Shown piece after piece: positions 7,504 through 46,217 of a DNA stretch of 46,580 nt. Under the pieces are notes generated by a model that was given only the letters and a program-made list of their open reading frames with translations, had not been told where the DNA came from and ran no database searches. The number at the start of each line of letters is the position of its first letter. Position 1 is the stretch's first letter. Position numbers and translations under genes: made by a program. The DNA is taken from assembly GCA_945871065.1 (NCBI GenBank), contig CAMBUL010000012.1, forward strand, positions 1 to 46,580, read 5' to 3'. The stretch comes from Chthoniobacter flavus (GTDB lineage: Bacteria; Verrucomicrobiota; Verrucomicrobiia; Chthoniobacterales; JACTMZ01).

Positions 7504-8180
7504 CCTGAGGCGCCGTTGTCAGAGCGCACCTTTTCTTCGTCCACCGCCCCTCCGAGAGAAGGGGCCATGTCGTCAACCGTGACCGCTGCGCCCAATGGCA
7601 AAATTCTGAAAAGTTCGACCGCCGCGTCTTTCTGGAGACGGATGCAGCCGAGGGAGGCAGGGCGACCGGGAATGTAACCGACATGCATCCCGACCCCGGT
7701 CTGGGTAAGGCGCATCCAGTAGGGCATGGGCGCGCCGATAAACCAGCCTCCCGAGGGCACCGCGTCCGTGCGGGCATCGGCATCCGATACCACCGTCTGG
7801 CCGTCCCCGGAAACGATGCGCCCGTAGAGATCGGATTGGTGGTCCTTTTTCTTCTCGATGATTTTGTAGGCCCCTTTGGGGGTAGGATGGCTGGCTTTGC
7901 CCGTGGCCACCGGAAAATCCATAGCGACATGGCCATCGACGAGAAGGAACCCGCGTTGTTCCCGCGTGGCAATCTCGACCGCGGAGTTTTGGGCGGTCGC
8001 CTTGGAAAGCAACTCGGCATTCCGGTAGGTCAGCTTGGGCCAATCTTCCTGCGTGCGGAAGTCATCATGTTGTCCGCGGGGCCTCGACACCAGCCGGGAC
8101 CGGGGATTCTCGAAGGTTGCGCAGGCGGTCAGGCTGAACACCGCAGCCCACAACAGTCCATGACGCAACGGAGTCCTCAC
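7500..8180 (-). CDS. L,D-transpeptidase (YkuD fold) lipoprotein
   Basis: A 226-residue envelope enzyme. The N-terminus is a lipoprotein signal with lipobox LTAC (Cys20), so it is probably anchored to a membrane. The YkuD catalytic motif is present as HVGYIPGRPASLGCIRL, with the His and the nucleophilic Cys of SLGCIR. Family members form 3-3 peptidoglycan cross-links or attach proteins to the wall. The GTG start at 8180 overlaps the TGA of gspF (GTGA), so this gene is translationally coupled to the end of the type II secretion operon. That is an unusual place for it and suggests local wall remodelling for the secretion machine, though this is inference. It overlaps the stop of the convergent nnr gene by three nucleotides. 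Confidence 0.88.
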   Translation of the reverse strand: MRTPLRHGLLWAAVFSLTACATFENPRSRLVSRPRGQHDDFRTQEDWPKLTYRNAELLSKATAQNSAVEIATREQRGFLLVDGHVAMDFPVATGKASHPTPKGAYKIIEKKKDHQSDLYGRIVSGDGQTVVSDADARTDAVPSGGWFIGAPMPYWMRLTQTGVGMHVGYIPGRPASLGCIRLQKDAAVELFRILPLGAAVTVDDMAPSLGGAVDEEKVRSDNGASG

Positions 8181-9406: not shown

Positions 9407-11124
9407 TATTCGTCCTGGGCACTGACGTCGGAAGTGGTGACGCGCATGACTTCCTCGATCGTGGTGGTACCGGTGGCGACCTTGTCGAAGCCGTATTTGC
9501 GCAGGGGACGCATGCCTTCTTTTTCCGCCGCGGGCCGCAATTCGGCGGCGGTTTTGCGCTGGGTGATCAGTTCCTGCAGCTTTGGCGTGACCAAGCAAAG
9601 TTCCATGATGGCGAGACGACCCTCGTAACCCGATTGGCGGCAATTCTCGCATCCGACAGCGCGCATGATCTTGCCCTCATATTCCGGCGGGAATCCGATG
9701 CTGCGCAGGTAGGCTGGCGAGTAATCACCCGGCTGGGCGGGCGCCTTGCAAAACGGACAAAGTTTGCGCACGAGACGTTGGGCGATGAAAGCGCGCACGG
9801 CACTGGCGACGAGGAAGGGTTCGACGTTCATGTCGAGGAGGCGGGTGATGCCGCCGACCGCATCGTTGGTGTGCAGGGTGCTGAAGACCAAGTGACCGGT
9901 GAGGGCGGCACGGATGGCAATTTCGGCCGTCTCGTAGTCGCGCATCTCGCCGACCATGATGACATTGGGGTCGCCGCGGAGGAAACTGCGCAAGAGATTG
10001 GCAAAGGTGTTGCCGATCTCGGGCTGGACCGCGCTCTGGTTCACCCCGGCCAGCTTGTGCTCGACCGGATCCTCAATGGTGAGGATGCGGCGCTCCTTGG
10101 TGTTGAGTCCGGAGAGAAAAGTGTAAAGCGTCGTTGATTTTCCGCATCCGGTCGGGCCGGTCACGAGAATGATGCCGTTGGGCAGGGCGAGGAGTTCGCG
10201 GACCTTTTTGACGTAATCCTCATCGAGCCCGAGGCGCTCGAGACTGAACACTTCCTTGCCGAGGAGACGGAGGCTGATGCTTTCGCCGTTGATCGTCGGA
10301 ATCGAAGCCACGCGGACATCGATGGGTTGCCCGCCCAACTCGAGGCTGATCCGCCCGTCCTGCGGGCGGCGGTCTTCGCCCAGGTCCAGGCCGGCGGTAA
10401 GTTTGAGGATGTTGATGACCGAGCGCTGGAGTTTGCGCATCTGGACGGGGACGGGCACTTCCTGCAGCACGCCATCAATGCGGTAGCGGACGCGAAGGTC
10501 GTTGGAGAGCGGCTCCACGTGGATGTCGGTGGCGCGCTCGCGCAGGGCCTCGCGGATGACTTGGTTGATGAATTTTTTGACCGACGCCTCTTCCGATTCG
10601 TCCTCGTCGAGGACGTTGACTTGTTCGCCGCGACCGAGATCGATGTCCTCCTCCATGCCACGACCTTCGAGCAGTTCCTCAAAGGTTTCGGCGCCGATCC
10701 CGTAGACTTGGCGCAAGGCGGGCAAAATGCCTTTGCGCGTGTAGATTTCGTAGCGTACTTCCTGCGGCACGGCTTCGGCCACCGCTTGCCGTGCGAGCAG
10801 GTCGAAGGGATCGTAGGTCAACAGGGTGATCGAGTCGTCGTTGGTCTCGACCGGGAGCAGTTGGTAGCGCAGGGCGATGCGGGCCGGCAGCTTGGCCCGC
10901 ATTTCCGGGGTGGCTTTGGCCACATCCGCCCCGCCCCACCGGAGGTGAAATTTGTCGGCCAATTCACGGTAGAATCCGTTTTCGTCGATCTCGGTACTGT
11001 CGAGCAAAGCGCGCATGAGGGACGACTGGATCCGAGCCGCGTCCTGCAGCGATGCGGTCACTTTGTCCCGGTCAGCTGCGCCGTGGCGCGCCGCGAGTTC
11101 CACCAGTTCGGGAATCAAGGCCAT
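9406..11124 (-). CDS. gspE: type II secretion ATPase GspE (PilB family)
   Basis: A 572-residue secretion ATPase that powers pseudopilus assembly from the cytoplasmic side. An N1E-type domain (about 1-150) is followed by the catalytic core. Walker A is GPTGCGKS at 323-330, the Asp box region includes TIEDPVEH, Walker B is VIMVGEMRD at about 388-396, and the His box is STLHTNDA. A zinc-binding CPFC/CENC tetracysteine lies at 456-459 and 492-495, as in GspE. The sequence is complete for its family. It starts 15 nt after gspD and shares a TAATG overlap with gspF, in the order D-E-F. Confidence 0.95.
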   Translation of the reverse strand: MALIPELVELAARHGAADRDKVTASLQDAARIQSSLMRALLDSTEIDENGFYRELADKFHLRWGGADVAKATPEMRAKLPARIALRYQLLPVETNDDSITLLTYDPFDLLARQAVAEAVPQEVRYEIYTRKGILPALRQVYGIGAETFEELLEGRGMEEDIDLGRGEQVNVLDEDESEEASVKKFINQVIREALRERATDIHVEPLSNDLRVRYRIDGVLQEVPVPVQMRKLQRSVINILKLTAGLDLGEDRRPQDGRISLELGGQPIDVRVASIPTINGESISLRLLGKEVFSLERLGLDEDYVKKVRELLALPNGIILVTGPTGCGKSTTLYTFLSGLNTKERRILTIEDPVEHKLAGVNQSAVQPEIGNTFANLLRSFLRGDPNVIMVGEMRDYETAEIAIRAALTGHLVFSTLHTNDAVGGITRLLDMNVEPFLVASAVRAFIAQRLVRKLCPFCKAPAQPGDYSPAYLRSIGFPPEYEGKIMRAVGCENCRQSGYEGRLAIMELCLVTPKLQELITQRKTAAELRPAAEKEGMRPLRKYGFDKVATGTTTIEEVMRVTTSDVSAQDE

Positions 11125-11139
11125 GATTTGCCCTCTCCC

Positions 11140-13647
11140 CTAGGTGGCCGATCTTTTCTTTTTGCCGGGAGTCGGCGTCGGCTTGGGCTTGGGGTCGGGC
11201 GCATACTCTTGGTAGTCGATTCCGGCCGGCCGCAGCGGATCGCGCGGTTTGCGGACCCTGCCGTCAGGCGTGAGCATGGGTGAGTCGTTGATCACCGGGG
11301 TGCGTCCCAGTTGCCAGGCGTCCGCCTCGTCATAAACCTCGTCCCCCAGCTTGGTGCGGTAACGCTCCTCCGCGCTGGCCACCGCAGTTTCGGCATCATC
11401 TTCCACCACGGTGGGCTGCAAGAGAATCAGTAGTTCCTGGCGCTCCACCGCCCGCGTGGTTTGCTTGAAAATGTAGCCGAGCACGGGCAGCCGCATGAGA
11501 AAGGGCAAGCCTCCGTCGTCTGCCTTGGTCTTTTCAATGATGAGACCGCCCAGCACCACCGTGCCGCCACTGGGCACGGTGACCGTGGTGGTCAGTTCCT
11601 GGGCTCCGACGACCGGCGCCTTGTTCCCGCTGCCGAAAGTTTCCTCGCGGAGCACGTTGTTGTTCGTCTGCACGATGACCAGGGTGACATCCCGGTTGGC
11701 ATTGATCAGCGGGAGCACTTCGAGCTTAAGCAAGACATCAAGATAGGTGATGTTGGCGGTGACGCCGGCGCTCTGGTTCGGGCCGACCCCGGTAATGGAG
11801 GTGGAGGTCAAGGTGCTGCTGGTGTAAGGCACGCGCTGGCCCGAACTGATCACCGCCTTCTTGTTGTTCGTGGTGTAAACGACAGGGCGGGAGATGATCT
11901 TGAACTTGCCGGTCGTCTCGAGGGCCCGCACGTAGTAATCAAGCGAGTTGGCAATGGTTCCGTAAAGGGTCAAGCCGGTAAAGGCGCCAGCGGCCAGCGA
12001 GGCGGGGGTAATGAGGTCCGGCGCGGTGAAGACGTTGGTGCCGGGAAGCGCATTGATTAGCGCGCCGCCCACGCTGCTACCATCCTTGCTCTGGTTGCGC
12101 AGGAAATAGTTGAAGCCGAATTCCATCTCGTCGCTCAAGCTTAGTTCCCCGATCACGGCCGCGATGTAAACCTGGCGCGGTCGCACATCAAGCATGTTGA
12201 GAAGCTGGGCGACTTTCTGGCGGCTGTCCGGTGGCCCGATGGCAATGATCGAATTGGCACTTTTGTCCGCGATAAGTTTGGTGTTGCCGACGATGACCGA
12301 TTCTGGGGCCACATCGGCGTTCGGTTCTTTGATCCGGTCGGGCCGACTGGTGCCACCACCCGCACCGGCTCCCGACTCGGAACCCGTGCCTTGTCCAAAG
12401 GTGGAGCCGCTCTCGACCATGGCGCCATCTGCACCCGCGCGCGGCGTCCCACCGCCGGTTCCACCCTCCTCGCCTTCCGAAAGCAGGTCCTGCAAGACAG
12501 GGAGCACATCACCGGAGGCGACAAACTGCAGCGGACGCTCAAGCACACTGTCGAGCGGCACGGGCGCATCGAGTTGCTCGATGAGTTGCTTGATGTAGGG
12601 GAAGTTGATCGGGCGCGTAACGACAAGAATGCGGTTGGTACGCGGGTCGGCAACGATTTGCGTTTCGCCGATGACAAGATTGGATTCGAACTGACCGGCA
12701 CCCGCACCGCCGAGGGAAGCTTGGATAACTTGTCCCTGCGCATCGACCGGCGGGGCGCCGCCAGGTTGACCCGGGGTTCCAGCACCCTCTTTCCGCTCCT
12801 CGAGCAAGGTTTGCAGAAGTTCGACCACCTTCTCGGCGTCGGCCCGTTTGAGGTCGACAAATTCGGTCATGACCTGCGCGGGCGGCACATCGACCATGGC
12901 TTGAAGACCGATGAGTTGCTGGATGATCGGGACGTTTTCCGTGATGAGCACGGCCTGCACATTGGGTACCGGGGTGAAGGAGGTGTAGGCCTTGGGCGGA
13001 CTGACAAAGGTCTGGAAAAGTTGCGCGGCCTCCTGGGGCGCGAGGTAGCTGAGTTTCATGAAATAGCTGACCACCTGATCGGTGGCCGGCAGCATGTAGG
13101 GTGTGGCAAAGATCGGGATGCCCTCAGCGCGCGGAAATTTCGAAGGGCCGAGGATTTTCACCGTCTTGTCGTCGACCGGGATGAACGAATAACCGTTGAG
13201 CAAGAGGGAGGCCTCGATCAGGCGGATGGCCTCGCTGCGCGGAACCTCTCCGGGCACAACAATGGTCAGCGGCTGTCCCTGGGCGAGCATGGAGTCGCGC
13301 ACAAGACGCTTATCGGTCAGCACCTCGTAAAGACTGAGGATCTCGTTGACCGAGGTATTGGGAAAGGTGAGTCGTACGGTTGGTTCGGGTTGGACCGGAC
13401 GCGAGACGGAGGCGGGAGGCGTTAGCGGGGGGGGGAACCCCGGATCGACCGCGACAGGTGGCAGCGGCGCGGGGGGTGAGGCTTCGGGCACCGCGGCCGG
13501 AGCCGATGGGACGGGCGCGGGGTCAATGTTCTCGAGCGGAGCAATGGGCGGCGCGGGTGCAGCATCCTGGGCAAAGGCAGGGGACGGGGCCAGAAAGACC
13601 ACGACCAGCCAGGCAGACGCGAGAATCGGGGAACAGATGCGACTCAT
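11140..13647 (-). CDS. gspD: type II secretion outer membrane secretin GspD
   Basis: An 835-residue secretin. A signal peptide (about 1-26, ending AFA) is followed by a proline-rich linker, then an N0 domain (about 80-160), N1-N3 modules with serine/glycine-rich insertions, and the C-terminal secretin core. The core carries the conserved VPSGGTVVLGGLI and PVLGYIFK motifs and a final RQELLILLQPTVV strand. GspD forms the outer membrane pore for folded substrates. The ATG at 13647 gives the signal peptide; the frame is open further upstream but without a plausible N-terminus. The long Gly/Ser-rich loop between N2 and N3 is larger than in proteobacterial GspD. It follows the GspC/PilP-like gene by 31 nt and precedes gspE by 15 nt. 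Confidence 0.93.
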   Translation of the reverse strand: MSRICSPILASAWLVVVFLAPSPAFAQDAAPAPPIAPLENIDPAPVPSAPAAVPEASPPAPLPPVAVDPGFPPPLTPPASVSRPVQPEPTVRLTFPNTSVNEILSLYEVLTDKRLVRDSMLAQGQPLTIVVPGEVPRSEAIRLIEASLLLNGYSFIPVDDKTVKILGPSKFPRAEGIPIFATPYMLPATDQVVSYFMKLSYLAPQEAAQLFQTFVSPPKAYTSFTPVPNVQAVLITENVPIIQQLIGLQAMVDVPPAQVMTEFVDLKRADAEKVVELLQTLLEERKEGAGTPGQPGGAPPVDAQGQVIQASLGGAGAGQFESNLVIGETQIVADPRTNRILVVTRPINFPYIKQLIEQLDAPVPLDSVLERPLQFVASGDVLPVLQDLLSEGEEGGTGGGTPRAGADGAMVESGSTFGQGTGSESGAGAGGGTSRPDRIKEPNADVAPESVIVGNTKLIADKSANSIIAIGPPDSRQKVAQLLNMLDVRPRQVYIAAVIGELSLSDEMEFGFNYFLRNQSKDGSSVGGALINALPGTNVFTAPDLITPASLAAGAFTGLTLYGTIANSLDYYVRALETTGKFKIISRPVVYTTNNKKAVISSGQRVPYTSSTLTSTSITGVGPNQSAGVTANITYLDVLLKLEVLPLINANRDVTLVIVQTNNNVLREETFGSGNKAPVVGAQELTTTVTVPSGGTVVLGGLIIEKTKADDGGLPFLMRLPVLGYIFKQTTRAVERQELLILLQPTVVEDDAETAVASAEERYRTKLGDEVYDEADAWQLGRTPVINDSPMLTPDGRVRKPRDPLRPAGIDYQEYAPDPKPKPTPTPGKKKRSAT

Positions 13648-13678
13648 GGCCGGAATTAAAGCATGGTTAGCAAGTTTC

Positions 13679-14536
13679 TCAAGGCGCGGCGGGAATGAGT
13701 GCCCGCCGCCGGATGACCCGGGGGGGCGGCATTTGCCCTTGGCCGCCTTGCACCTGCCCATTCGTTGGAGTGCCCGACCCGGGCACCGGAGGAACAAATC
13801 CGGGGGCTTGAGGCATACCCGGCGCGGGTTGTCCGAGAAACTGGGCGGCGGGGACGGCCCCGGGAGAACCGGCAGCCTGCGGGGGCATACCAGGTGGCGA
13901 TGGCGGGACCACCTGCTGCATGGGCCGGGGCGATGGCATGCCGGGTTGGGGCATTCCCGGAGCCATGGCCACACCGGCATCAAAGCGAACTACACCGACC
14001 TCCGCGCCTTGGCGCAGTGTGGCCGAGGAGTCCGTATATTTCTGCTGCACATCGACTTGCACCAAAGACACACCGGCTTCCTTGCTGTCTGCTTTGACCA
14101 TCAGGCGATTTTGCGTGGCGCGCTCCATGACGAAAGCAATGGGTTCGCCATTGATCTCCGCAATGCCGGTGAGCGCGAAGCGTTGAGCCAGGCCGGCCGA
14201 TTCGGCAGGCGGGGCGACCGATTCCAGTTGGAAAGGAGAGCGCTGCCACAGAGGTTCGTAACGGGAAAGGGGAAAGGCTGGCGTGGTGATGCCTTCTTCC
14301 TCAGGCGGAACAGGTTCAACCTCAGCCGAAGGATCCGCCTCTGCGGGCAGCAAGGGCGTCGGTGAAGGGGTGCCTGCGGGCGGCTTCTTTTCACCTTCGA
14401 CCCCGGTCGACCGCGCCTCGACCAGAGGAACCTTGAGCAATTCCGAGGCATCCGACTTGTCTTCTTCGGCCCAGACGGATGCCGCAAGGCCGAGAAAAAG
14501 CGGGGCCATGGCAAGAGAAAGCCGTGGGCGCTTCAT
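13679..14536 (-). CDS. proline-rich periplasmic protein, candidate GspC/PilP-like subunit
   Basis: A 285-residue protein with an N-terminal signal peptide or anchor (about 1-22, ending VWA). An acidic, proline-rich segment (about 45-85) is followed by a compact domain (about 88-180) and a long Pro/Gly/Met/Gln-rich tail. The compact domain reads LWQRSPFQ, then FALTGIAEINGEPIAFVME, then TLRQGAEVGVVRF. This order of an R-x-P-F element, a GI-x-x-I-x-G strand and a late L-x-x-G strand resembles the HR domain of GspC/PilP, which docks on the secretin N0 domain. Its place between GspM and gspD supports that role. No clear GspC is otherwise present in the cluster. Function is inferred. It overlaps the GspM-like gene by an ATGA junction. 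Confidence 0.6.
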   Translation of the reverse strand: MKRPRLSLAMAPLFLGLAASVWAEEDKSDASELLKVPLVEARSTGVEGEKKPPAGTPSPTPLLPAEADPSAEVEPVPPEEEGITTPAFPLSRYEPLWQRSPFQLESVAPPAESAGLAQRFALTGIAEINGEPIAFVMERATQNRLMVKADSKEAGVSLVQVDVQQKYTDSSATLRQGAEVGVVRFDAGVAMAPGMPQPGMPSPRPMQQVVPPSPPGMPPQAAGSPGAVPAAQFLGQPAPGMPQAPGFVPPVPGSGTPTNGQVQGGQGQMPPPRVIRRRALIPAAP

Positions 14537-15072
14537 TGCTCTCCTCCCTGCACCGGACGATACCAACGCGCCACTTCGACTTCGGCGATCACCTCGGGAG
14601 GTTCGCCACTTTTGATCGAGATCTGTTTGACGGCGCGGAACGCTTTGGGTTGCTGCAATTCGTTGAGCCATTTGACCAGCGACTCCATCTTGCCTTTGAC
14701 CTGCGAGGAATCGAAAACCTCGGCATACGTTCCACCGTCCGGCTGGGTTCCTGCGTCACGCCGAGTGTAAGAGAGCCCGGCATTCTTGGCACTGCTCTCG
14801 ACGAATTCGTAGAACTTCGCATCATCATCCGTCGTCGTGACATCGTCGCCGGGCTGGTGCTGGTCGAGCCAGGCCGCGCGTTCCTGCCAGATCGTTTTCT
14901 CCTCGAGAATGGCACGGCCCTCGGTCAGCTGGCTCTGGAGCTGCACGATGCTGTTTTGCAGCGCGCGTTGGCGATTGAGGAAGGCCTGCAGGCCCACGAC
15001 ATTGAGCAGCACGAAAAGCGCGCCGACCAAAGCGAGGAGTAGTCTTTTTTCCTTAGCCGTCAGCGCTCTCAT
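14533..15072 (-). CDS. GspM/PilO-like assembly platform protein
   Basis: A 179-residue bitopic membrane protein. A short basic cytoplasmic start (MRALTAKEKR), one transmembrane helix (about 10-30) and a coiled-coil stretch (about 32-65) precede a small periplasmic domain ending in a beta-strand pair. That architecture and its position directly after the GspL-like gene match GspM (or PilO), which pairs with GspL in the inner-membrane platform. Sequence signatures of GspM are weak in general, so the call rests on topology and context. The ATG at 15072 lies 20 nt inside the preceding gene. An upstream in-frame Met exists at 15138 but would add an arginine-rich, non-homologous N-terminus. Confidence 0.65.
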   Translation of the reverse strand: MRALTAKEKRLLLALVGALFVLLNVVGLQAFLNRQRALQNSIVQLQSQLTEGRAILEEKTIWQERAAWLDQHQPGDDVTTTDDDAKFYEFVESSAKNAGLSYTRRDAGTQPDGGTYAEVFDSSQVKGKMESLVKWLNELQQPKAFRAVKQISIKSGEPPEVIAEVEVARWYRPVQGGEQ

Positions 15073-16333
15073 CGGTTGCCTCCTCTCCTTCCACCGCCGC
15101 CGCGCCGTGGCGCACGCCGTCGATCTGGAAACGTGCACTGCCGGTGGGCAACGGACGTGGGTTTTCCATTGTCCAATCGTAGGCCGTCAGGTCCGGATTT
15201 TTGCGCACATCCTCCTGGAAGCGCTGCGCCGCCTGCAAGGTCGACGCCTCCCCGGCCAGCACCACCCGGTCCACGTTCATCTGGAACAGGGTCAAACGCA
15301 CACCATCCTTCGGCAGCAAGCGCGCAGCTTGATAAAGAACCTCCAGCGGATAGCCAACCGGATCGAGGGCCGGCTCGATCGCCCCCCAGCGCTGCATGGC
15401 CGCGCGCACCGCATCCACTTCGCCCGCCTCGCCGGCAATCGTTGCCCGCAACGATTCGGCCCGCCACCAAAGCCAGAGCGTGTTGGCGGCCAAGGCCAGC
15501 ACCAAAGCAAAATACACGGTCGCCGCCAAAAGCGCGATTTTCTGCCGCCGGGCACCCGTTTCCTTGGCCAGTTGCAGGTCGCGGACCGGCAAGGGAAGGC
15601 AACCAAGCGGAGCGGACGGACCCACCGGCGGGGGAAATTTTTCCACCGTGACTTCGACACCACCGGCGCTCCGCCAATCCGACAAGTCCGGCACGGCAGC
15701 ACCTTGATAGTAAAGGATGACGCGCCCGCTGCCGTTCAGCATGCGCCCCGCGTCGAGCGAGGACTGCATCAGCCAAATTTCCAACGCCATCCGTGACGAC
15801 GGTGTTTTCTCGGCGAGCGGCTGGAAGTGCAGCAATCGGTCCCCTCGCGTGACCCCGGCCACCCATCCTCCTTCTTCCTCCCATACCGTCACCGCATCCG
15901 GGACGAGCGGCAGGCAGGAAGGCGAGACGGCGTATTCGGTCACATCGCCATGCCAATAGCGCGGCGCCAGATTCGAAGGCAAGACAACGGCATGAAGCAA
16001 AGCCTCATGGCCCTCGCGAGCCACCTCTTGCCAGGAAAAGGAGGTCAATTCCCGCGAGCGGCCAGCCAGTCCGCGCAATTCAAGTTGGGTGAAGATAAGG
16101 TCGCCGAACAAAGATGGATCTTCGGCCGGCACCCAGAAGGCAATGGAAAATGCCCGCCGCACCGGCACGGCCACAAGGGCTCCGGCCTCGGGTCGCAATT
16201 CCGACAAGTCCACCGCCTGGCCCGTCTCGCCCCAAGCCCCGGCCTCGTCCTGCTCCCACTTCTCCCAACCGGCGGAGGCCGGACGAAAGAGGGCGCGACG
16301 TGTCTGGCGCGGGCGTTTTATTTTTCCTCCCAT
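15053..16333 (-). CDS. GspL-like assembly platform protein (large cytoplasmic domain, one TM, periplasmic domain)
   Basis: A 426-residue protein. About 260 residues of soluble cytoplasmic sequence precede a single transmembrane helix (about 265-290), then a periplasmic region of about 130 residues with a ferredoxin-like alternation around 325-410. GspL has this layout: an actin-like cytoplasmic domain that recruits GspE, a TM helix and a periplasmic partner domain for GspM. The actin-like motifs are too diverged for me to point to, so this is a context call. It overlaps gspK by 16 nt and the GspM-like gene by 20 nt, implying tightly coupled expression. A PilM-PilN fusion is an alternative description. 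Confidence 0.68.
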   Translation of the reverse strand: MGGKIKRPRQTRRALFRPASAGWEKWEQDEAGAWGETGQAVDLSELRPEAGALVAVPVRRAFSIAFWVPAEDPSLFGDLIFTQLELRGLAGRSRELTSFSWQEVAREGHEALLHAVVLPSNLAPRYWHGDVTEYAVSPSCLPLVPDAVTVWEEEGGWVAGVTRGDRLLHFQPLAEKTPSSRMALEIWLMQSSLDAGRMLNGSGRVILYYQGAAVPDLSDWRSAGGVEVTVEKFPPPVGPSAPLGCLPLPVRDLQLAKETGARRQKIALLAATVYFALVLALAANTLWLWWRAESLRATIAGEAGEVDAVRAAMQRWGAIEPALDPVGYPLEVLYQAARLLPKDGVRLTLFQMNVDRVVLAGEASTLQAAQRFQEDVRKNPDLTAYDWTMENPRPLPTGSARFQIDGVRHGAAAVEGEEATDESADG

Positions 16334-17244
16334 AACAGGTAAGTGACAGCTTCTCCGCCCTCGCCCGATTCGGCGACCACGGAGATCTGGCGGGAACGCT
16401 CGCCCACCATGCCGCGGCTATCAATTCTTTTGACCGAACTCTCCGTGGTGAGGCGGCCCATGATCTGTTCCGGCGGCAGCGTCGAACCGGCCAGCCAGCC
16501 GGCGACCTGACCGACATCGTCGAAGCGCAGATCGTCCTCCGAAGGTTCGACCCCGTCGCTGCCGCGGCGTTGCTGCAGGATGCCCTGCACCATTTCCGGG
16601 GTGGCACCCGTCACGGCCTGGAGCACGTCGGCCTCCGCCTCGTTCACGTCAATCAAGCCGTCGCTGAAAATGGTGAAACTATCGGCCCAGTCGGGCTTGA
16701 GTGTCGCAAGCTTTTCCATATCGAGCACGCGGCCCATTTCCGGCACGCTGCGGAACGGGCCGTTGGCCGGGGCGCCGGTGATGCCGGCCGCCTCGTATTC
16801 CGTACGCTCCGCACCGCCGAAGCCGGTGCGGAACTCATCCTCGTCGACCCAGTCGGTGAGCTTGTCGATGAGGGCATTCCCCTCGTCCGCAGTGAGCCCC
16901 CACAAAGTGAAAAGATTCAGCATGGTGATACGGTCCTGGTCCTTGAGCAATCGATTGATGTTGAAGCGCGCCCCCTCACCACGGATGCGGACCTGCATGC
17001 GTTCGCCGGCTCCGAAGTCGCGGTTGAGCAATTCGGTATCATCGCGCTTGACCTGCGGGTGCAGACCCAAGGCAACCCCGCTCACGGCAATCTGGCGCGC
17101 GCGCAGGCCGGCCGAGTCGGATACGGTCGTCTCGAGTTCGAGATTCACCACGTTGGCCATCCAGAGCACCGCGAAGGAAATCACCGTGATAGCCCACAGA
17201 ACGAGGAGCAGGGCGGCGCCCGATGGACGTATCGCGGCCGTCAC
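16318..17244 (-). CDS. gspK: type II secretion minor pseudopilin GspK
   Basis: A 308-residue protein with the GspK start GAALLLVLWAITVISFAVL as its N-terminal membrane helix (about 9-30). GspK caps the pseudopilus tip with GspI and GspJ, and unlike other pseudopilins it lacks Glu at +5, as here. The middle holds FNINRL, NALIDKLTDWVDEDE and the LIDVNEAEADVLQAVTG helix-hairpin-helix-like element expected for the family. The start is GTG at 17244, set by the GTGA overlap with gspJ. The open frame extends further upstream only as an out-of-frame shadow of gspJ. Length is normal for GspK. Confidence 0.87.
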   Translation of the reverse strand: MTAAIRPSGAALLLVLWAITVISFAVLWMANVVNLELETTVSDSAGLRARQIAVSGVALGLHPQVKRDDTELLNRDFGAGERMQVRIRGEGARFNINRLLKDQDRITMLNLFTLWGLTADEGNALIDKLTDWVDEDEFRTGFGGAERTEYEAAGITGAPANGPFRSVPEMGRVLDMEKLATLKPDWADSFTIFSDGLIDVNEAEADVLQAVTGATPEMVQGILQQRRGSDGVEPSEDDLRFDDVGQVAGWLAGSTLPPEQIMGRLTTESSVKRIDSRGMVGERSRQISVVAESGEGGEAVTYLLWEEK

Positions 17245-17918
17245 GGTACTTCCACCTCCATTTCCGGCGGAGACCCCTGCGCTTCCGCAGGGGCTTCTTC
17301 CAGAGCTATTTCCTTGACCGGAGGAAGCCAGAAAATGAACTGACGGGGAACTTCCTCGCCGAGCAATTGCAAGTTGAGTTCGACCAGCGGCGGCCGCTCC
17401 CCTTCCAACCATTCGTCCAGCCAATCCTGCTGCTCCACGCTGTAAAAACGCCACTTCACCTCACGCAGGTCGGGCAGCAGACGCAACCAGACCCCGCGCT
17501 CTAGTGCATCGCGCCGCTCCATCTCGCTGAGTGAACCGGACAGGAGCATCAGGCTGAGCTCGCGACCACCGCCGAGGCGCGGACGCGCGGCCAACAGCGC
17601 GGTGCCGGCCGAGGGTCCGCCCATGCCCCAGGCAAAGACACCAGGCGCATCACGAAGCGTGATCTCGGGAAAACCATCACCAGCATCAGCCCGCACGCCC
17701 CCGGAGAACCGTGCGTTGGCCGGCAGGTTGTGGAAAGTGCGCCGGACGAGCGAAACAAAGGCGTTGAGCCGTTGGATCTGCAGATTCTCCTCGGTCAGCG
17801 TTGCCGTGGCGCGGACCGCTGCGTTGACCGTGGCGTAAATCCCACCGGCCAGCAGGACGAAGATGGCGATCACCACCACCATCTCAAAGAGCGTGAACCC
17901 GCGTGCGGCTGTTCTCAT
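17241..17918 (-). CDS. gspJ: type II secretion minor pseudopilin GspJ
   Basis: A 225-residue pseudopilin. The prepilin peptidase site is RG^FTLFE (Gly7, Phe8) with the conserved Glu at +5, followed by the hydrophobic spine MVVVIAIFVLLAGGIYA. Size, order and the long C-terminal globular domain fit GspJ, part of the I-J-K tip complex. The ATG at 17918 overlaps the stop of gspI (ATGA) and its own stop overlaps gspK (GTGA). The frame opens upstream to 17999 but the prepilin signal fixes the start. Confidence 0.88.
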   Translation of the reverse strand: MRTAARGFTLFEMVVVIAIFVLLAGGIYATVNAAVRATATLTEENLQIQRLNAFVSLVRRTFHNLPANARFSGGVRADAGDGFPEITLRDAPGVFAWGMGGPSAGTALLAARPRLGGGRELSLMLLSGSLSEMERRDALERGVWLRLLPDLREVKWRFYSVEQQDWLDEWLEGERPPLVELNLQLLGEEVPRQFIFWLPPVKEIALEEAPAEAQGSPPEMEVEVP

Positions 17919-18295
17919 GGCTGGTAACGTAGGAATTTTTCCTCCCACGATTGCTCCTCCCGTCCCTCGGTCCACTCCGCGCGTACCGTGACCCACCACA
18001 GGCCGGTCAGCTCCTCGTTATCCATGTTGAGCAACTCGGCGGGTTCGGCCCGGACGAAAAACTTCGCCCCCATCGCATCGGGTCCCACCTCGCGGCCTTG
18101 CTCCAGATCGGCGACCGGCATGACCATCGATTCGTCGAGCAATGACTCCAACTGCTGACGCACCTCGCCGTCACGCCGCATCATCACATTGGCCGCGAAA
18201 ATTTTGTCCATCGCCATGGCCAATCCGCCCACCGCAACGACGAACATGAACATCGCGGTGAGTAATTCGATGAGGGTAAATCCGGCCTTCTTCAC
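17915..18295 (-). CDS. gspI: type II secretion minor pseudopilin GspI
   Basis: A 126-residue pseudopilin beginning MKKAG^FTLIELL, with Gly5 at the cleavage site and Glu at +5. The short globular domain carries LTGLWWVTVRAEW, like the C-terminal strand of GspI (xxWxVxVxW). It is the GspI of the tip complex by order and size. The start is the GTG at 18295, which overlaps the TGA of gspH. The reading frame stays open upstream to 19264 (449 codons), but that part runs antiparallel to no known fold and is a frame shadow of gspH and gspG. Confidence 0.86.
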   Translation of the reverse strand: MKKAGFTLIELLTAMFMFVVAVGGLAMAMDKIFAANVMMRRDGEVRQQLESLLDESMVMPVADLEQGREVGPDAMGAKFFVRAEPAELLNMDNEELTGLWWVTVRAEWTEGREEQSWEEKFLRYQP

Positions 18296-37659: not shown

Positions 37660-38454
37660 CTACCGCGTTCTTTCCGCCGACAAACTGACCAAGGCGCGTT
37701 GTCCGCCCTCACGGATTTCGGTCACGCGGCAGCCGTAGATTTCAGACAAAACTGCGGGCTGCATGATCTCGGAGGCCGGACCGCTGGAGTGGATGCGTCC
37801 GGCAGCGAGCAAGGCCACCTCATCGGCGTAGTGGGCCGTGAGATTGAGATCATGGAGGATGGCGAGAACACCATGTCCGGCCCGAGCCAGGCGCCGCGCT
37901 TCGCCGAGGAGTTGGTGCTGGTGCGAGGGATCGAGGCTCGAAACCGGCTCGTCGAGCAAAAGCACGCCGGCCGTCTCCCCGCCGGATATTTGCGCGACCG
38001 TGCGGGCGAAAGCCACCCGCTGCCACTCGCCGCCGGAAAGGCGCGAGCAGTCACGTCCGGCCAGGTCGGAGAGATTCATCTGCTGCAACATTTCCCAGGC
38101 CACGGAGCGCACATCTTCCTCGGCGCCATAGGCCAGGCGCCCGAGTTCGACCGCTTCGAGCACCGTCATGCCGGAAGGCCGCGCGTTGTCTTGCCGCATC
38201 ACGGCACAGTGCCGTGCACGTTCGGACGGACGATAGTCCGAGATCGCGCGTCCGTTGAGCATGACCTGTCCGCTCCCCGCCTTGAACAATCCGGACATGA
38301 CCGAGAGCAAAGTGGATTTGCCGGCGCCATTGGGACCGATCACGGCCATAAACTTGCCGGGCGTCACGGCAAGTGAAACGCCGTCGAGGATCCGGCGCGT
38401 CTCGCGGGACAGCGTGATCTCTTCCGCGACCAAAGAGGGGACGTTCTTGCTCAT
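37660..38454 (-). CDS. hmuV: heme/iron-complex ABC transporter ATP-binding protein
   Basis: A 264-residue FecE/HmuV-type ATPase. Walker A is GPNGAGKST (40-48), the signature LSGGEWQRV, and Walker B VLLLDEPVSSLD. It powers import by the adjacent FecCD-type permease. The ATG at 38454 overlaps the permease stop (TGATG), fixing the start; the open frame extends upstream only inside the permease gene. Heme specificity is inferred from the neighbouring heme oxygenase; siderophore or B12 uptake uses the same family. Confidence 0.9.
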   Translation of the reverse strand: MSKNVPSLVAEEITLSRETRRILDGVSLAVTPGKFMAVIGPNGAGKSTLLSVMSGLFKAGSGQVMLNGRAISDYRPSERARHCAVMRQDNARPSGMTVLEAVELGRLAYGAEEDVRSVAWEMLQQMNLSDLAGRDCSRLSGGEWQRVAFARTVAQISGGETAGVLLLDEPVSSLDPSHQHQLLGEARRLARAGHGVLAILHDLNLTAHYADEVALLAAGRIHSSGPASEIMQPAVLSEIYGCRVTEIREGGQRALVSLSAERTR

Positions 38455-39491
38455 CAGGTGGACCAGGAAGACGGGCGGCGGAGCAAGGCGAGGAAGAAGG
38501 GTCCGCCAATCACCGCGGTGAGGATCCCGACCGCGAGTTCGGCCGGGGCGGCCAGAGTGCGGGCCCCGAGATCGGCCAAGACGAGAAGCATGGCGCCGAG
38601 CAGGATAGCTCCGGGCAGAACGAGGCGATGCAGGCCGCCAAGCAAAAGGCGCGCCATGTGCGGCGCGACCAAGCCGATGAAACCGATGGTGCCGGCAAAA
38701 GCCGTGGCCGCGCCGACCAGCAAGGCGGCGGCCAAGATGATCTCGCGGCGCACCCGCACGACCGATACCCCGAGGTGCGCGGCCTGTTCCTCGCCGAATT
38801 GCAATGCATCGAGGGAGCGCGCATTCCGCCAGAGGAGAATCACGCCGATCGCGAGGAAGATGAGCAGGACGACCACCTGGGGCCATTGGGCCGAGGCGCA
38901 ACTGCCAAGGGTCCAGAAAGTCATGGAGCGCAAGGCATCGTCACTCGCCGAAAAAAGAAAAAATCCCAACACACTTCCGAGCATGGCATTGAGCGCGACG
39001 CCGGCGAGAATGAGCTTGGCCGTGCCGCCGGCCGCAAAACCGGCATTGAAAATTCCCAAAACAAGCACCGCGAGCCATCCGCCGACAAAAGCCGCCAGGG
39101 GCAGCAGCCAGCCGCCGAGCAATCCTTCCCAGCCGAAAAAGAAACAAACCACCGCACCCAAGGCGGCGCCGGCGCTCACCCCGATCAGCGCGGGGTCCGC
39201 CAGCGGGTTACGGAAAAGCCCTTGCACCCCCGCCCCGGCCAGGGCGAGAGCCGCACCAACCAACGCCGCGAGTAAAACGCGCGGCAGGCGGATCTCCCAG
39301 AACACGGCGCGGACAATTTCCGGGACCTGAGCTGGAGCGGCGACGAGATTCCACAAATCGACGAGGCCGATGTTGACCGCGCCGACGGCGGAAGCGGTCA
39401 AAAGGACAAGGGGCAAGAGCGCAGCCAGAAGCCAAAGCCGTCCATGAGCCCGACTCCGCCGACGCGAGTCGTTCTCCCGCTCCGCGTTCAC
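38454..39491 (-). CDS. hmuU: heme/iron-complex ABC transporter permease (FecCD family)
   Basis: A 345-residue permease with about ten hydrophobic segments. It has the family stretches RLPRVLLAALVGAALALAG, VQGLFRNPLADPALIGVSAGA and GFIGLVAPHMARLL. It is the membrane component of the importer. The start is GTG at 39491, within a GTGA overlap with the binding-protein gene, and it overlaps hmuV by one nucleotide. Confidence 0.92.
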   Translation of the reverse strand: MNAERENDSRRRSRAHGRLWLLAALLPLVLLTASAVGAVNIGLVDLWNLVAAPAQVPEIVRAVFWEIRLPRVLLAALVGAALALAGAGVQGLFRNPLADPALIGVSAGAALGAVVCFFFGWEGLLGGWLLPLAAFVGGWLAVLVLGIFNAGFAAGGTAKLILAGVALNAMLGSVLGFFLFSASDDALRSMTFWTLGSCASAQWPQVVVLLIFLAIGVILLWRNARSLDALQFGEEQAAHLGVSVVRVRREIILAAALLVGAATAFAGTIGFIGLVAPHMARLLLGGLHRLVLPGAILLGAMLLVLADLGARTLAAPAELAVGILTAVIGGPFFLALLRRPSSWST

Positions 39492-40318
39492 GGCTGTCTC
39501 AACGCCGTGGCCACCTGAGTAGCAGCGGCCGGAGTGCGCGGGCCGAAACCGAGGAAGGCCGCGTCGTCGACGCGAATGACCCGCAGTTCGCGGCCGGCCG
39601 GCGTGGCGCCGAGCCCCGGCACGCGCGCCAGCAACTGGGCGTCATCACCGCCCACGCTCTCCGAAACGATGATGAAGTCGGGCGTGGCGGTGGCGAAAAT
39701 TTCGGCCGAGAGAGGTTGATAGCCGGTGAAGGAAGCGCAGACGTTGCGTCCGCCACTGGCCTCGACCATGGCATGCGCTGCGGTCTCCGTGCCCGCAGCC
39801 ATGAGGTTGCCCCCATGCCGCGCAAGGAGAAAGACCACCCCGGGACGCTCGCCCTCGTTGGCGGCCGTCGCGGCGCGGAGCGCCTGCACGTCGGCATCCA
39901 CGCGAGTGATGAGCTTCTCTCCGTCTTCAACCCGGCCCGTCGCCGCGGCAATGGCGCGGATCTTGTCGTCGATATTGTCGAGGGAATAGCCGTTGGAAAT
40001 GACCACCACATTCACGCCCGCCGATTTGATCTGCTCGAGCACGGGCGGCGGACCGGCCTCGCTGGAAACGAGGACGAGATCGGGCTTTTGCGAGAGGATG
40101 CCCTCCGCACCGAGCATGCGGACATAGCCGATGTCGGGTTTGTCGCGCGTTTCCTCGAGATGTTTGCTCGAGGTATCGACCGCGACAATCTGCGGGGCGA
40201 GACCGAGACCGGAGACGATTTCGGTCACTGCCGCGCCTGCCGTGACAATACGGGCCGGCTCGGCTCGCGCGGTCAGCGCGGTGAGCAAGACGGCCAGGAT
40301 AGTCGCCGGACGAAGCAT
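39488..40318 (-). CDS. hmuT: heme/iron-complex ABC transporter substrate-binding protein
   Basis: A 276-residue class III periplasmic binding protein. A signal peptide (about 1-19, ending ARA) precedes RIVTAGAAVTEIVSGLGL, KPDIGYVRMLGAEGILSQKPDLVLVSS (seen in parts) and a long rigid helix. HmuT binds heme, usually through a Tyr or His; a GY element in DIGYVRML aligns with a heme-ligand position in HmuT. The ATG at 40318 is set by the signal peptide. It follows the heme oxygenase after 20 nt. Confidence 0.87.
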   Translation of the reverse strand: MLRPATILAVLLTALTARAEPARIVTAGAAVTEIVSGLGLAPQIVAVDTSSKHLEETRDKPDIGYVRMLGAEGILSQKPDLVLVSSEAGPPPVLEQIKSAGVNVVVISNGYSLDNIDDKIRAIAAATGRVEDGEKLITRVDADVQALRAATAANEGERPGVVFLLARHGGNLMAAGTETAAHAMVEASGGRNVCASFTGYQPLSAEIFATATPDFIIVSESVGGDDAQLLARVPGLGATPAGRELRVIRVDDAAFLGFGPRTPAAATQVATALRQP

Positions 40319-40338: not shown

Positions 40339-40974
40339 TCAGGCCACGTGGATTTCGTCGTCCAGCGCGGAAATTGCGTCGAACGTATCTTGTGCGGCTT
40401 TGACCATGGTGTCCTGCTCTTCGGACGACCAATCGATGGCATTCATGTCCTCGCGGAATTTCATCCACAGTCCACGCTGCGCTTCGCCGTGCGGGTCGAG
40501 GTATTTCATTCCCTCGCCATCCGTCTTGCCCCAGGCCTTGCCGAGGGCGCGGGCGATGAAACGGGCGCCATTTTTGCTGCCTTCGAAAACGTAATAGATG
40601 CCCATGAGCACGGCCGGCGACGGTGCTTGCTGGATGGTCCCGACCAGATTTTGCGCGCCCTTGAGCGGCTCGATCGTGGATGTCTCGACCCCCAAGTAGC
40701 CGAGGTCGGCTTCGATGTTCGCGGTCTGGTAGAGACCCGGCAGGCCGAGATGGGAGAGACGATGGTCCTCACCGAGCACACGGTCGGTCGCCGCCTCGAG
40801 TTCGCGATGGATGAGCCAGCGCTGGCCGAGATATTGTTTGTATTGGTCGTGGTCGATGGAGCCCGCGACAAGCGCGGCTTCCAGAGGTTTGGCTTCGGCA
40901 ATGGCATGCTGCTCGGCCGTCTCGGCCTTGAGCCGGCCCATGATGCCGGTGGGTGCTGCGGTGGTGGTGGTCAT
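40339..40974 (-). CDS. hmuO: heme oxygenase (biliverdin-producing)
   Basis: A 211-residue HO-1-type heme oxygenase that opens heme to biliverdin, iron and CO. The proximal His is in ETAEQHAIAEAKPL (His23). The distal-helix region with small residues corresponds to SPAVLMGIYYVFEGSKNGARFIA. Length matches bacterial HmuO. It is the first gene of hmuO-T-U-V, a complete import-and-degrade unit for heme iron. The ATG at 40974 has no strong Shine-Dalgarno; the promoter is unclear (TTGCAC-N17-TTGACT is a weak candidate). Confidence 0.9.
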   Translation of the reverse strand: MTTTTAAPTGIMGRLKAETAEQHAIAEAKPLEAALVAGSIDHDQYKQYLGQRWLIHRELEAATDRVLGEDHRLSHLGLPGLYQTANIEADLGYLGVETSTIEPLKGAQNLVGTIQQAPSPAVLMGIYYVFEGSKNGARFIARALGKAWGKTDGEGMKYLDPHGEAQRGLWMKFREDMNAIDWSSEEQDTMVKAAQDTFDAISALDDEIHVA

Positions 40975-41017: not shown

Positions 41018-41782
41018 TCAGTGCATAGCGAAGCCGATTTCCGACTGATTTTCCCACAAACGCTCATCGCGCAACTGTTCGCGATCCAACAATTCTGTGT
41101 GGCCATCAAGAAAGACCACAAGGGCTTTGTCACCGGCATGACGGAAGGCAACGTTGCGGTCCGGGTATTCCACGCTGAAGTAGCCGGGTTGCTCCCCGCC
41201 CATCCGCGAGTCGTTGTATTCGGCGGAGACAAAAGCGATGAGTTGCGAGGGTTGGTGGACTTGCACCATGCGGGTTACACCGCCTTGCTCGGCAAACCGG
41301 TGAGCGAAGCGAGGGTTGAAGGGGTTGGGAGATTTGCGGTCATCACCACCGATATAAACGGTGTTCATGCCGAGAGAGGGGATAAGGCTGATCATGTATT
41401 GCCGCTGCGTGGGATCCTCGATTTTTTGCCCGCTGGCCAGAAAGGCCTTCTGCACATCGTAGCCGAGGTAAGGTGCCAGTCTCCACGGGTAACGTTTGGC
41501 CGTTTGCCCGGTGATGGGATTGTTGTCGTTATCCATGACGGTCTCGCCAGGGCGGACGTAAAAACCGGGCATGACAGCACCATTATTGTCCGCCGCATAC
41601 ATTTGCATCCCGGAAGCGATGGAGCGTGCCGCGGCAATTTCCGCAGCCAATCGTGCTCCTTTTCCGGAGTTGGCCAAGACGGGAACTGCCAATGCGGCGA
41701 GAACACCAAGGATGGCTACAACGACCAATATTTCGACCAAAGTGAAGGCGGATGTCCTTTTTAGGTTTTGGCAAACTTTCAT
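41018..41782 (-). CDS. pseudopilin-like protein with prepilin N-terminus and H-x10-DG element
   Basis: A 254-residue protein. The prepilin site is SA^FTLVE (Phe13, Glu at +5) followed by ILVVVAILGVLAALAVPVL. A large globular domain follows. Near the C-terminus is RHAGDKALVVFLDGHTELL, a one-residue-longer variant of the H-x9-DG element common in prepilin-like proteins of Planctomycetes and Verrucomicrobia. These are far larger than classical pseudopilins and not linked to a gsp cluster. It is the last gene of a three-gene operon, overlapping the preceding gene by ATGA. Confidence 0.85.
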   Translation of the reverse strand: MKVCQNLKRTSAFTLVEILVVVAILGVLAALAVPVLANSGKGARLAAEIAAARSIASGMQMYAADNNGAVMPGFYVRPGETVMDNDNNPITGQTAKRYPWRLAPYLGYDVQKAFLASGQKIEDPTQRQYMISLIPSLGMNTVYIGGDDRKSPNPFNPRFAHRFAEQGGVTRMVQVHQPSQLIAFVSAEYNDSRMGGEQPGYFSVEYPDRNVAFRHAGDKALVVFLDGHTELLDREQLRDERLWENQSEIGFAMH

Positions 41783-42915
41783 GGCTGAGATGTTTTGGAA
41801 ACGGCTACGCGGTAGAATCTGGTACTCACGCCGTCCGGAAGAAGGTCGTCGTGCATTAAGGTTCCGCCCGTGCCTTGACGGTAATTGTCAAGCGGGTGCC
41901 AATCGCCCGAGTGGAAGCTGTCCCGGTATTCGATCTGGTAGGTCTGGCCGGCCACGGTGTCGAAGGCGATCCTGAAGCCTCCGGTCGTCGGTGTAACCAC
42001 GGTGGACGGCATGAGTAAAACCTCTGCCTCAAGTTGCGGGCCGAGATAGTAGGGGATGGCCGGATCCTTGAAGTCCTTGGTGTAGAACTTCGGTATGTCT
42101 TGGCTCTCCTGCGAGGTGCCATAAAGCGAGCTGATCATGAGGTGGAGCCTGCCGGCCTGAAGCGCGTCTTGCAGGTAAGCGATGGTGCGCTCATTGCTGA
42201 GATCGACTTGAAATCGGAACACGCGACCTTCGGGAACCAGACTGCCTTCCTCCAAAGCACTGCTGACATAGTTGCCGCTGAAGTCCATGAACCCTGGTGA
42301 GTCGGCGATCGCCCAAGGGTTGGCCTCAAAGACATCTTCGACATTGTTTGAAACGTCCCGACCCGAACCATCCGGCGCGAAATCAAGAGCATACGCGTTT
42401 CTGACGCGGGTTAAATTCTGCCCGCCGGCAGAGAGGGTCTGAAAAGGGGAATCCTCGGTAAAAGTTTCACGTGTCCAACCAGCTCTGTAACCCACGCCAT
42501 ACAACTCGATCGGACGTCCCGCATCGGAGTCTGCCCCACCCGTGAAAGTGGCCAGTGAGTCGAATGTCGGGTCGTAGCGGAATGCACCCTCGTTTCCGAC
42601 AACAACGGTGACAACGAGACTAAGAATCCGGTAATTTTTCGCCCCCTGGCCCGGGGCAGCCAGCGCCTCGGTGGCAAAATCGAGAAAGAACTGACCGTCC
42701 CGGTCATCGAAACTCCAGCCGGGGATCGAATCGATCGAACCATAGGCGCCGAAAACGCCCGCCCAAGCGCGGCGATACTGCGAGGGGACGTCATCAATGA
42801 AGGGGTAGATGTATTTGTCTCCCGCCGGTTGGAGAACAACCGAGGTGCTGCCACTGCTGGGTGCGATGATGAGGACGGACAAAACCAATCCGGCCAAAAC
42901 GAGGAGACTCTTCAT
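41779..42915 (-). CDS. secreted protein with verrucomicrobial C-terminal beta-domain
   Basis: A 378-residue protein with a signal peptide (about 1-23). Most of it is beta-rich with Asp and Asn loops and no family I can name. The last 75 residues (GFRIAFDTVAGQTYQIEYR, then a Trp, then RFYRVAV) match a C-terminal module common on exported proteins of Verrucomicrobia and Planctomycetes. It overlaps the PEP-CTERM gene and the pseudopilin gene by four nucleotides each, so the three are translated together. Its role is probably extracellular; nothing suggests an enzyme. Confidence 0.78.
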   Translation of the reverse strand: MKSLLVLAGLVLSVLIIAPSSGSTSVVLQPAGDKYIYPFIDDVPSQYRRAWAGVFGAYGSIDSIPGWSFDDRDGQFFLDFATEALAAPGQGAKNYRILSLVVTVVVGNEGAFRYDPTFDSLATFTGGADSDAGRPIELYGVGYRAGWTRETFTEDSPFQTLSAGGQNLTRVRNAYALDFAPDGSGRDVSNNVEDVFEANPWAIADSPGFMDFSGNYVSSALEEGSLVPEGRVFRFQVDLSNERTIAYLQDALQAGRLHLMISSLYGTSQESQDIPKFYTKDFKDPAIPYYLGPQLEAEVLLMPSTVVTPTTGGFRIAFDTVAGQTYQIEYRDSFHSGDWHPLDNYRQGTGGTLMHDDLLPDGVSTRFYRVAVSKTSQP

Positions 42916-43604
42916 ATGCGGACGGCCTCGGTTGCGCGGCGAGGCAAGACCGAAAAGACGAGGCACCCGGCCGAAAAAAGTAGTAGGGCCCAAGTGGAGG
43001 GCTCAGGAACAACGGAAACGCGGTCCAGCCCGACGTTAACGACCTGGCCCACAATACCGGGAGTCTGGTTTGTCGAGAGGGCAATCTGTACGTTCTGAAT
43101 GTTAGTGAAAACGGACGTGAATGATCCAGCGCCGTAGGACTGGAACGAGGTTGGAGCGTCAACCAAGGGAACCTCTAGCTGGAACCAGTTCGACGAAGGG
43201 ACACTGAAATCAATGCTGCTGCCAGCGCGTCCGGCCCCCGCATCGAGACGCGCGTAGAAATTCAAGGCAACGGGCGCGTCGTGCCAGATATAAGCAGAAA
43301 AGGTGGTCACTCCTCCGCCTATCCAGTTGCCGACAAAGGCTCCGCCACTGGCATTGGTCGCGGCGTTGCCCCGGAAGACAATGGCGCCGAACCCGCTCGT
43401 GGCCACCGTGCCGCTGGAAGTAATGAATCCGCCATCATCAACGCCACCCGTGGGCAACCAACCCGCCGCCACGCTCGAATTCCCGGTGGCCCAGTTGGCG
43501 TTACTTAAGGTGAAATCCTCGGTGAAAGGAACAATCAAGGCGGAGGCTGGGAAAACAGACGCCAAAAGAGCGAACAAGGCGGCAAAGGAGTGGCGGGTGA
43601 TCAT
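42912..43604 (-). CDS. PEP-CTERM sorting-domain exported protein
   Basis: A 230-residue exported protein. A signal peptide (about 1-21) leads a beta-sandwich-like domain (FTEDF..., GNSSVAAGW..., about 25-195) reminiscent of lectin/carbohydrate-binding jelly rolls. The C-terminus is a classic PEP-CTERM signal: VVPEPSTWALL, a hydrophobic helix, and a basic tail PRRATEAVR. Such proteins are processed by an exosortase and sent to the surface or matrix. No exosortase gene is in the window. It heads the operon with the secreted protein and the pseudopilin. Confidence 0.9.
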   Translation of the reverse strand: MITRHSFAALFALLASVFPASALIVPFTEDFTLSNANWATGNSSVAAGWLPTGGVDDGGFITSSGTVATSGFGAIVFRGNAATNASGGAFVGNWIGGGVTTFSAYIWHDAPVALNFYARLDAGAGRAGSSIDFSVPSSNWFQLEVPLVDAPTSFQSYGAGSFTSVFTNIQNVQIALSTNQTPGIVGQVVNVGLDRVSVVPEPSTWALLLFSAGCLVFSVLPRRATEAVRI

Positions 43605-43803
43605 GGACGGGCAATATAAAATACACGATTGCGGCCAACCTCCAAATGAGGGCGCATCTTTAAGCACGGCCGTCGATACTGCGATTGTGTCTCAATCTCA
43701 ATAAGGGTCAAGGCCTATTTATTTTGGTTCGAAATGGGACGCGCGGCCTTGAAGGGCGCAAGAGGGCGCCGAAACAGGGTACTCACTCACCCTGGTGCTG
43801 ATC
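43605..43803. other. intergenic region between the PEP-CTERM operon and cobA/hemD
   Basis: About 200 nt with no gene. It holds the candidate promoter for the PEP-CTERM operon and, just after the cobA/hemD stop, a perfect 6-bp inverted repeat CAGGGT/ACCCTG with an 8-nt loop (43775-43794). That repeat has no U-run, so I do not call it an intrinsic terminator. Confidence 0.5.
43684..43711 (-). promoter_or_regulatory. candidate promoter of the PEP-CTERM/pseudopilin operon
   Basis: On the minus strand TTGACC (43706-43711), 16 nt, CACAAT (43684-43689). The predicted leader is about 75 nt, unlike the leaderless heads elsewhere in the window, which leaves room for post-transcriptional control. Confidence 0.4.
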
Positions 43804-46211: not shown

Positions 46212-46217
46212 GATGGC

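Follow-up and report, generated by a model that had tools for sequence, protein, structure and literature searches.

Among the described systems closest to the locus reported here, the Isd heme system of Staphylococcus aureus combines sortase-anchored NEAT proteins with the IsdEF importer and the heme oxygenase IsdG/I (PMC7815599), and TonB-dependent heme receptor operons encode a receptor followed by HemS and the HmuTUV importer. We here describe a seven-gene unit in a stretch of Chthoniobacter flavus DNA (contig CAMBUL010000012.1, 46,580 nt; hereafter the window), in which genes for three exported proteins, here called PEP, SEC and PIL, precede genes for a heme oxygenase (HO) and an HmuTUV-type ATP-binding cassette (ABC) importer. 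As in the Isd system, genes for sorted, exported surface proteins accompany those for heme import by an ABC transporter and for heme degradation, but the unit differs from Isd in being carried by a diderm host, in involving exosortase instead of sortase, in including a pseudopilin and in the lack of any Pfam match to the NEAT domain in PEP or SEC. With the TonB-dependent operons it shares the HemS/HO-HmuTUV genes, but no TonB receptor was found at the heme loci of the module and none was detected in the window genome. We consider it probable that the unit is a heme-iron acquisition operon, in which an exosortase/pseudopilin surface module occupies the place of a TonB receptor.

The three exported proteins also have relatives, or likenesses, of their own. 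Sorting of PEP-CTERM proteins by exosortase was described by Haft et al. (2006), as cited in PMC4960237, and PEP agrees with such systems in carrying the signal, with an exosortase gene present in the window genome (PF09721, G000:C1:78222-79001, E 3.6e-48). PIL is like the type IV pilins and the pseudopilins of type II secretion systems (T2SS), such as GspG, ComGC and PilA4, in its methylation motif, its long helix and a weak match to the pilin fold, but unlike these it falls below every NCBIfam equivalog cut-off and has a globular domain of its own of about 200 residues. The likeness of the SEC core to the carbohydrate-binding modules (CBMs) of families CBM96 and CBM100, and to the TGF-beta propeptide, is one of predicted fold only, without any sequence match. 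PEP-CTERM proteins and pseudopilins with no known roles are numerous in many Verrucomicrobiota and Planctomycetota. No description of a heme link of a PEP-CTERM/SEC/PIL module was found in the open-access literature, subscription journals lying mostly outside that search.

The initial annotation of this region had reported three exported proteins joined by two ATGA overlaps, and this was confirmed, with all three frames being open and with both the PEP/SEC and the SEC/PIL junctions forming 4-nt overlaps. It had missed, however, that the unit continues into the heme oxygenase and hmuTUV genes. Across all seven genes (43604 to 37660) the longest gap is 43 nt, the gaps downstream of the HO start are between -4 and 17 nt, and a crude consensus scan gave no terminator-like site between PIL and HO. 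This spacing suggests that PEP-SEC-PIL-HO-hmuTUV forms one operon with the trio at its head (Table 1), and the seven-gene unit is kept in congeners whose upstream neighbours differ. The periplasmic binding protein, the FecCD permease and a heme-type ATPase are encoded together, as in importers of the HmuTUV type, although the ATPase scored just below the cut-off of the heme ABC ATPase model (256.6 versus 261 bits); judging from the adjacency to heme oxygenase or HemS genes, the substrate of the importer is probably heme.

Table 1. Positions of the features discussed in the text, as numbered in the window.
Feature	Position	Strand	Size	Remarks
PEP, exported protein with PEP-CTERM exosortase signal	42912..43604	-	230 aa
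SEC, secreted protein, core of ~246 positions and C-terminal FN3-like module	41779..42915	-	378 aa
PIL, type IV prepilin-like protein with conserved globular domain of ~200 residues	41018..41782	-	254 aa
Heme oxygenase (HO)	40339..40974	-		PF01126, 1e-21; starts 43 nt after PIL
hmuT-like periplasmic heme-binding protein of ABC importer	39488..40318	-		Peripla_BP_2, 2e-32
hmuU-like FecCD permease	38454..39491	-		7e-89
hmuV-like ATPase	37660..38457	-		Best NCBIfam match: heme ABC transporter ATP-binding protein
Promoter-like site TTGACC-16-CACAAT of the putative operon	43684..43711	-		Consensus match only
Candidate operator ATTGAGATTGAGACACAATC with inverted repeat GATTG-N5-CAATC	43683..43702	-	20 nt	Conserved in congeners
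T2SSF, T2SSE, secretin, T2SSK and prepilin-like genes	8177..17999 (about 8.2-19 kb)	-		In window

The link between the module and heme genes was surveyed in the order of the window. Heme oxygenases were found in 14 of its 117 genomes. Ten of these enzymes were of the window type (59–100% identity to the window HO), eight of which adjoin PIL, with one following PEP (G009) and one lying at a contig edge (G001). The other four, being 24–27% identical, stand beside phytochrome genes; G057, once a candidate for an HO beside a TonB receptor, was dropped since its HO likewise adjoins a phytochrome gene. Among 80 named PIL loci, 24 had at least one heme gene (HO, HemS, hmuT or hmuU) and these loci span Chthoniobacterales, Kiritimatiellota, other Verrucomicrobiota and Phycisphaerae. 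Clustering of the neighbours placed heme genes as the most frequent after PIL itself and the group of SEC, PEP and SECB (a separate family of secreted proteins, described below), with hmuV-like ATPases at 22 loci, HO at 13, hmuT at 10 and HemS at 9; an AraC-type regulator occurred at 11 loci, as did one further gene cluster found mainly in Phycisphaerales. The arrangement itself varies, from trio-HO-hmuTUV in the genus of the window to hmuTUV-HemS-SEC-PIL in Kiritimatiellota, and in Phycisphaerae HO lies downstream of SEC with PIL divergent; in loci L129, L130, L133, L136 and L147 HO is convergent.

At HemS loci the module was seen to alternate with a TonB receptor. Ten genomes of the order have strong HemS loci, seven of which adjoin PIL. 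In G042 and G046 a TonB-dependent receptor immediately precedes HemS-hmuT-hmuU, followed by hmuV, and this receptor occupies the slot taken elsewhere by PEP/SEC/PIL and their analogues; G047 has neither PIL nor a TonB receptor, and no HemS locus of the ten has both. Neither the barrel (PF00593) nor the plug (PF07715) of such receptors gave a match in the window genome, G000, which is 95% complete, and those congeneric genomes that were searched with PF00593 gave no barrel match. A purpose-built receptor profile gave no TonB receptor at the heme-linked PIL loci. TonB receptors are present in 76 of the 117 order genomes, divided as 4 of 18 genomes with PIL versus 72 of 99 others (Fisher p 7.5e-5, uncorrected for kinship), a contrast to which the genus of the window contributes much. 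As additional observations at HemS-hmuTUV loci, an AraC-family regulator stands beside these genes with either a TonB receptor or the PEP/PIL module (L232:2755-3714, the similarity of this protein being judged by eye; L070:489-1418; L059:12454-13365), and PEP-CTERM proteins of 639 and 789 residues with passenger-associated autotransporter repeats lie between PIL and HemS/hmuTUV (L068:4457-6376 and L070:5205-7574, respectively).

The proteins of the trio were then compared with known families and folds. PEP has the C-terminal PEP motif, transmembrane stretch and basic tail of an exosortase substrate, passes PF07589 (21.2 bits, cut-off 20.7) as well as TIGR02595 (19.3 bits versus 16), and shares with its homologues the motifs PFTEDF..W... 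and RHDAP. Both PEP and SEC have signal peptides that appeared ordinary when judged by eye. SEC had no Pfam match and no sequence match among solved PDB chains, and both SEC and the globular domain of PIL are conserved families without a fitting Pfam entry. The structural model of SEC (predicted local distance difference test, pLDDT, 90.4) gave a beta-sandwich core with a CBM96/CBM100-like predicted fold, closest to two CBMs, one that binds chondroitin sulfate (8wab, Z 12.7 across 172 residues) and one that binds alginate (7vbo, Z 11.7 across 169 residues), followed by TGF-beta-type propeptides (Z 8.3). The C-terminal module, which the initial annotation had regarded as typical of Verrucomicrobia, is indeed also found at the termini of very large proteins in Verrucomicrobia and resembles FN3 domains in the predicted structure. 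It is the core of SEC that is conserved across lineages and the anchor that varies, being FN3-like in the window, of PEP-CTERM type in L058 and L076, and GC-type dockerin-like (below cut-off) in Phycisphaerae, whereby three different targeting signals can no longer be seen as a required feature of the system.

The resemblance to CBMs, the interchangeable anchor and the many heme-free SEC-PIL loci of Phycisphaerae and some Verrucomicrobiota would all suit a general surface lectin or adhesin, with a carbohydrate-binding SEC that holds cells or exopolysaccharide and is co-regulated with heme uptake in some lineages. We think this explanation unlikely, however, as heme genes are the top functional neighbours of the module and stay adjacent through changes of order and orientation, as module and TonB receptor replace each other at HemS loci, and as a common fold proves no function.

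PIL passes N_methyl PF07963 (27 bits, cut-off 21.2), and its model (mean pLDDT 93.4) shows the predicted architecture of a prepilin-like protein, with the methylation motif followed by a long N-terminal helix (residues 15–65) and then a compact globular domain. Its best structural match, the Thermus pilin PilA4, is weak (Z 5.1) and fits the pilin core, whereas the globular domain, with its signatures RYPWRLAPY and LDG..DMR.WS, was not seen among the PDB structures compared. Foldseek alone gave no significant match for either SEC or PIL. Scores against the equivalogs of GspG and ComGC (31.3 versus 88.85 and 29.8 versus 75 bits) and against the Verru_Chthon cassette C and D families TIGR02599 and TIGR02596 (14.6 versus 256.5 and 28.1 versus 70 bits) were below cut-off and stemmed from the N-terminus only. 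The H-x10-DG element noted earlier is present in PIL as HAGDKALVVFLDG at residue 215, but only its DG is nearly invariant in the family, with His occupying its column in 26 of 66 rows. The spacing differs from that of the H-X9-DG prepilin-type domain, and no such family was among the Pfam or NCBIfam matches listed. It could be argued that PIL, as a dedicated pseudopilin, assists the T2SS in the export of SEC and PEP and has no role in uptake, considering its pilin-like nature, the T2SS genes in the window and its pairing with SEC across phyla. That possibility is very improbable in our view, because PIL keeps its large conserved domain and the signal peptides of PEP and SEC are ordinary, and to our knowledge dedicated one-cargo pseudopilins are not an established kind.

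Turning to distribution, a PIL homologue was present in 18 of the 117 genomes of the order and, in a phylum-wide sample of 387 genomes, in 21, with the 80 named loci belonging to Verrucomicrobiota, Kiritimatiellota and Planctomycetota; profile matches among the loci examined were to SEC (246 positions) in 55, SECB in 22 and PEP in 17. SECB was initially considered a divergent SEC, which was rejected by profile comparison (probability <1%), and it is thus a separate family in the same slot. The initial annotation had proposed profile searches for conserved neighbours, and these revealed the SEC-PIL pair to recur in Verrucomicrobiota, Kiritimatiellota and Phycisphaerae, across the Planctomycetes-Verrucomicrobia-Chlamydiae (PVC) superphylum, a situation in which the genes stand apart in most relatives not being seen. 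Most same-strand SEC-PIL or SECB-PIL junctions, including those of L076 and L082, can be read as a -4 overlap, and since this extends to Kiritimatiellota the overlap is old and did not arise by a recent local deletion. Translational coupling is still not essential, because SEC and PIL are transcribed divergently in Phycisphaerae, and the fixed stoichiometry once deduced from the overlaps is not supported for the same reason. One 621-residue frame (L096:7292-9157) joins PEP and SEC, but it was rejected as Rosetta-stone evidence for having both a sorting-like tail and a signal peptide within the frame, and is likelier to represent two genes that were merged through loss of a stop codon, be it real or an assembly error, than a true fusion. 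Separately, L118:7624-9614 holds tandem SEC paralogues with different C-terminal anchors alongside one PIL.

The separate leader reported earlier was also corroborated. The promoter-like site in front of PEP is, by match count alone, no better than shuffles, but its -35 and spacer are conserved in four congeneric genomes. This site, the only promoter-like one of the region, is overlapped by the candidate operator ATTGAGATTGAGACACAATC, which is found upstream of the trio without change in G003, G006 and G008 and with one mismatch in G010, in DNA that has otherwise mostly diverged. Its distance to the ATG is 116 nt in G008 but 81 nt in the window and the other three congeners; it has a single copy in the window genome and none in shuffles of the window. 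A classical Fur box was looked for in the element and rejected, no score of the window exceeding those of shuffles. G002 and G003 yielded one further copy each (2 and 3 mismatches), in both cases directly in front of the gene for the same predicted outer-membrane-like protein of about 245 residues (L226:753-1487 and L230:1494-2273, respectively), for which Pfam weakly hints at DUF6662. The inverted repeat is present in every copy except the one with a single mismatch in G010. These copies suggest that this gene and the heme operon constitute a small shared regulon, and the element may mediate control by iron or heme. Directly upstream of the unit, on the same strand, hemA-hemC-cobA/hemD were also noted (43804-46580), an arrangement that is kept in G003 and G010 and not in G006 or G008.

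Several findings weigh against a role of the module in heme acquisition. No known heme-binding fold was found in the trio, with SEC resembling polysaccharide-binding modules and PIL only pilins, and among conserved residues SEC has Tyr but no His, with one His each in PEP and SECB. Some module-bearing genomes also have TonB receptors, albeit not beside the heme-linked PIL loci, and porins may pass heme through outer membranes without a dedicated device. Of the 63 loci at which SEC, SECB or PEP accompanies PIL, as many as 43 had no heme gene within the flank examined, and because of this the core SEC-PIL module may be broader than heme. When 42 genomes of such heme-gene-free loci were tested, 23 had no heme oxygenase at all. 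In favour of a heme role, the other 19 had one elsewhere in the genome, mostly in Phycisphaerae and in all but one case of the PIL-linked type. A SEC or PEP partner was furthermore not associated with heme linkage among the 80 PIL loci (p 0.77), since some heme loci have PIL alone and heme genes are missing from many SEC-PIL loci.

Such heme-free loci bring up a wider surface module for acquisition of metals or metallophores, for which heme would be one substrate and other metals would be taken where the neighbours differ. Metal-related genes were observed at heme-free SEC-PIL or PIL loci, encoding an ABC-3 metal permease with an iron-dependent repressor domain (L121:13751-15064), DUF4198 proteins (L101:10295-11047 and L139:18477-19157) and DUF6607 proteins (L080:6044-6976 and L083:2423-3361). 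These genes, together with a di-haem peroxidase at L097 and ABC-3 genes near the Kiritimatiellota heme locus L076, fit that proposal, but the neighbours examined are few and without a control count, and many Phycisphaerae loci have no transport neighbour whatsoever, making it quite improbable in our judgement.

The heme-acquisition reading that we favour draws upon the gene content and compactness of the unit, the heme linkage persisting with shuffled gene order, the alternation with TonB receptors, the promoter element and the predicted folds. In such an operon, PEP would be anchored by exosortase and SEC exported with its interchangeable anchor module, while PIL would be a substrate of prepilin peptidase and the subunit of a short pseudopilus, for which the T2SS-type genes of the window could provide the assembly machinery. 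At the surface the three proteins, possibly as a physical complex, would trap heme, heme proteins or a matrix that bears heme, and pass heme inward; heme is their presumed ligand and passage across the outer membrane their putative task. HmuT would then bind heme in the periplasm, HmuUV would import it and the heme oxygenase would release the iron, with the surface module standing where relatives have a TonB-dependent heme receptor. The surface fibre or matrix proposed in the initial annotation agrees with the conserved exported neighbours and with the exosortase and T2SS genes, but it leaves the HO and the heme importer out of account. A more elaborate version, in which heme is captured by exosortase-anchored and CBM-like proteins of the surface and brought through the outer membrane to HmuTUV by a dedicated pseudopilus that T2SS-type machinery drives, as a TonB-independent heme machine of the PVC bacteria, is put forward only tentatively.

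The trio may hence be an undescribed heme-collecting route for bacteria without a TonB receptor. The unit ties both the question of PEP-CTERM proteins and pseudopilins and that of heme uptake without TonB receptors to one defined and testable pathway, and it offers a comparison within a single order between HemS-hmuTUV with a TonB receptor and HemS-hmuTUV with a surface module. Should heme indeed be carried by the module, this would represent an outer-surface strategy that differs from the TonB receptors and soluble hemophores known from Gram-negative bacteria.

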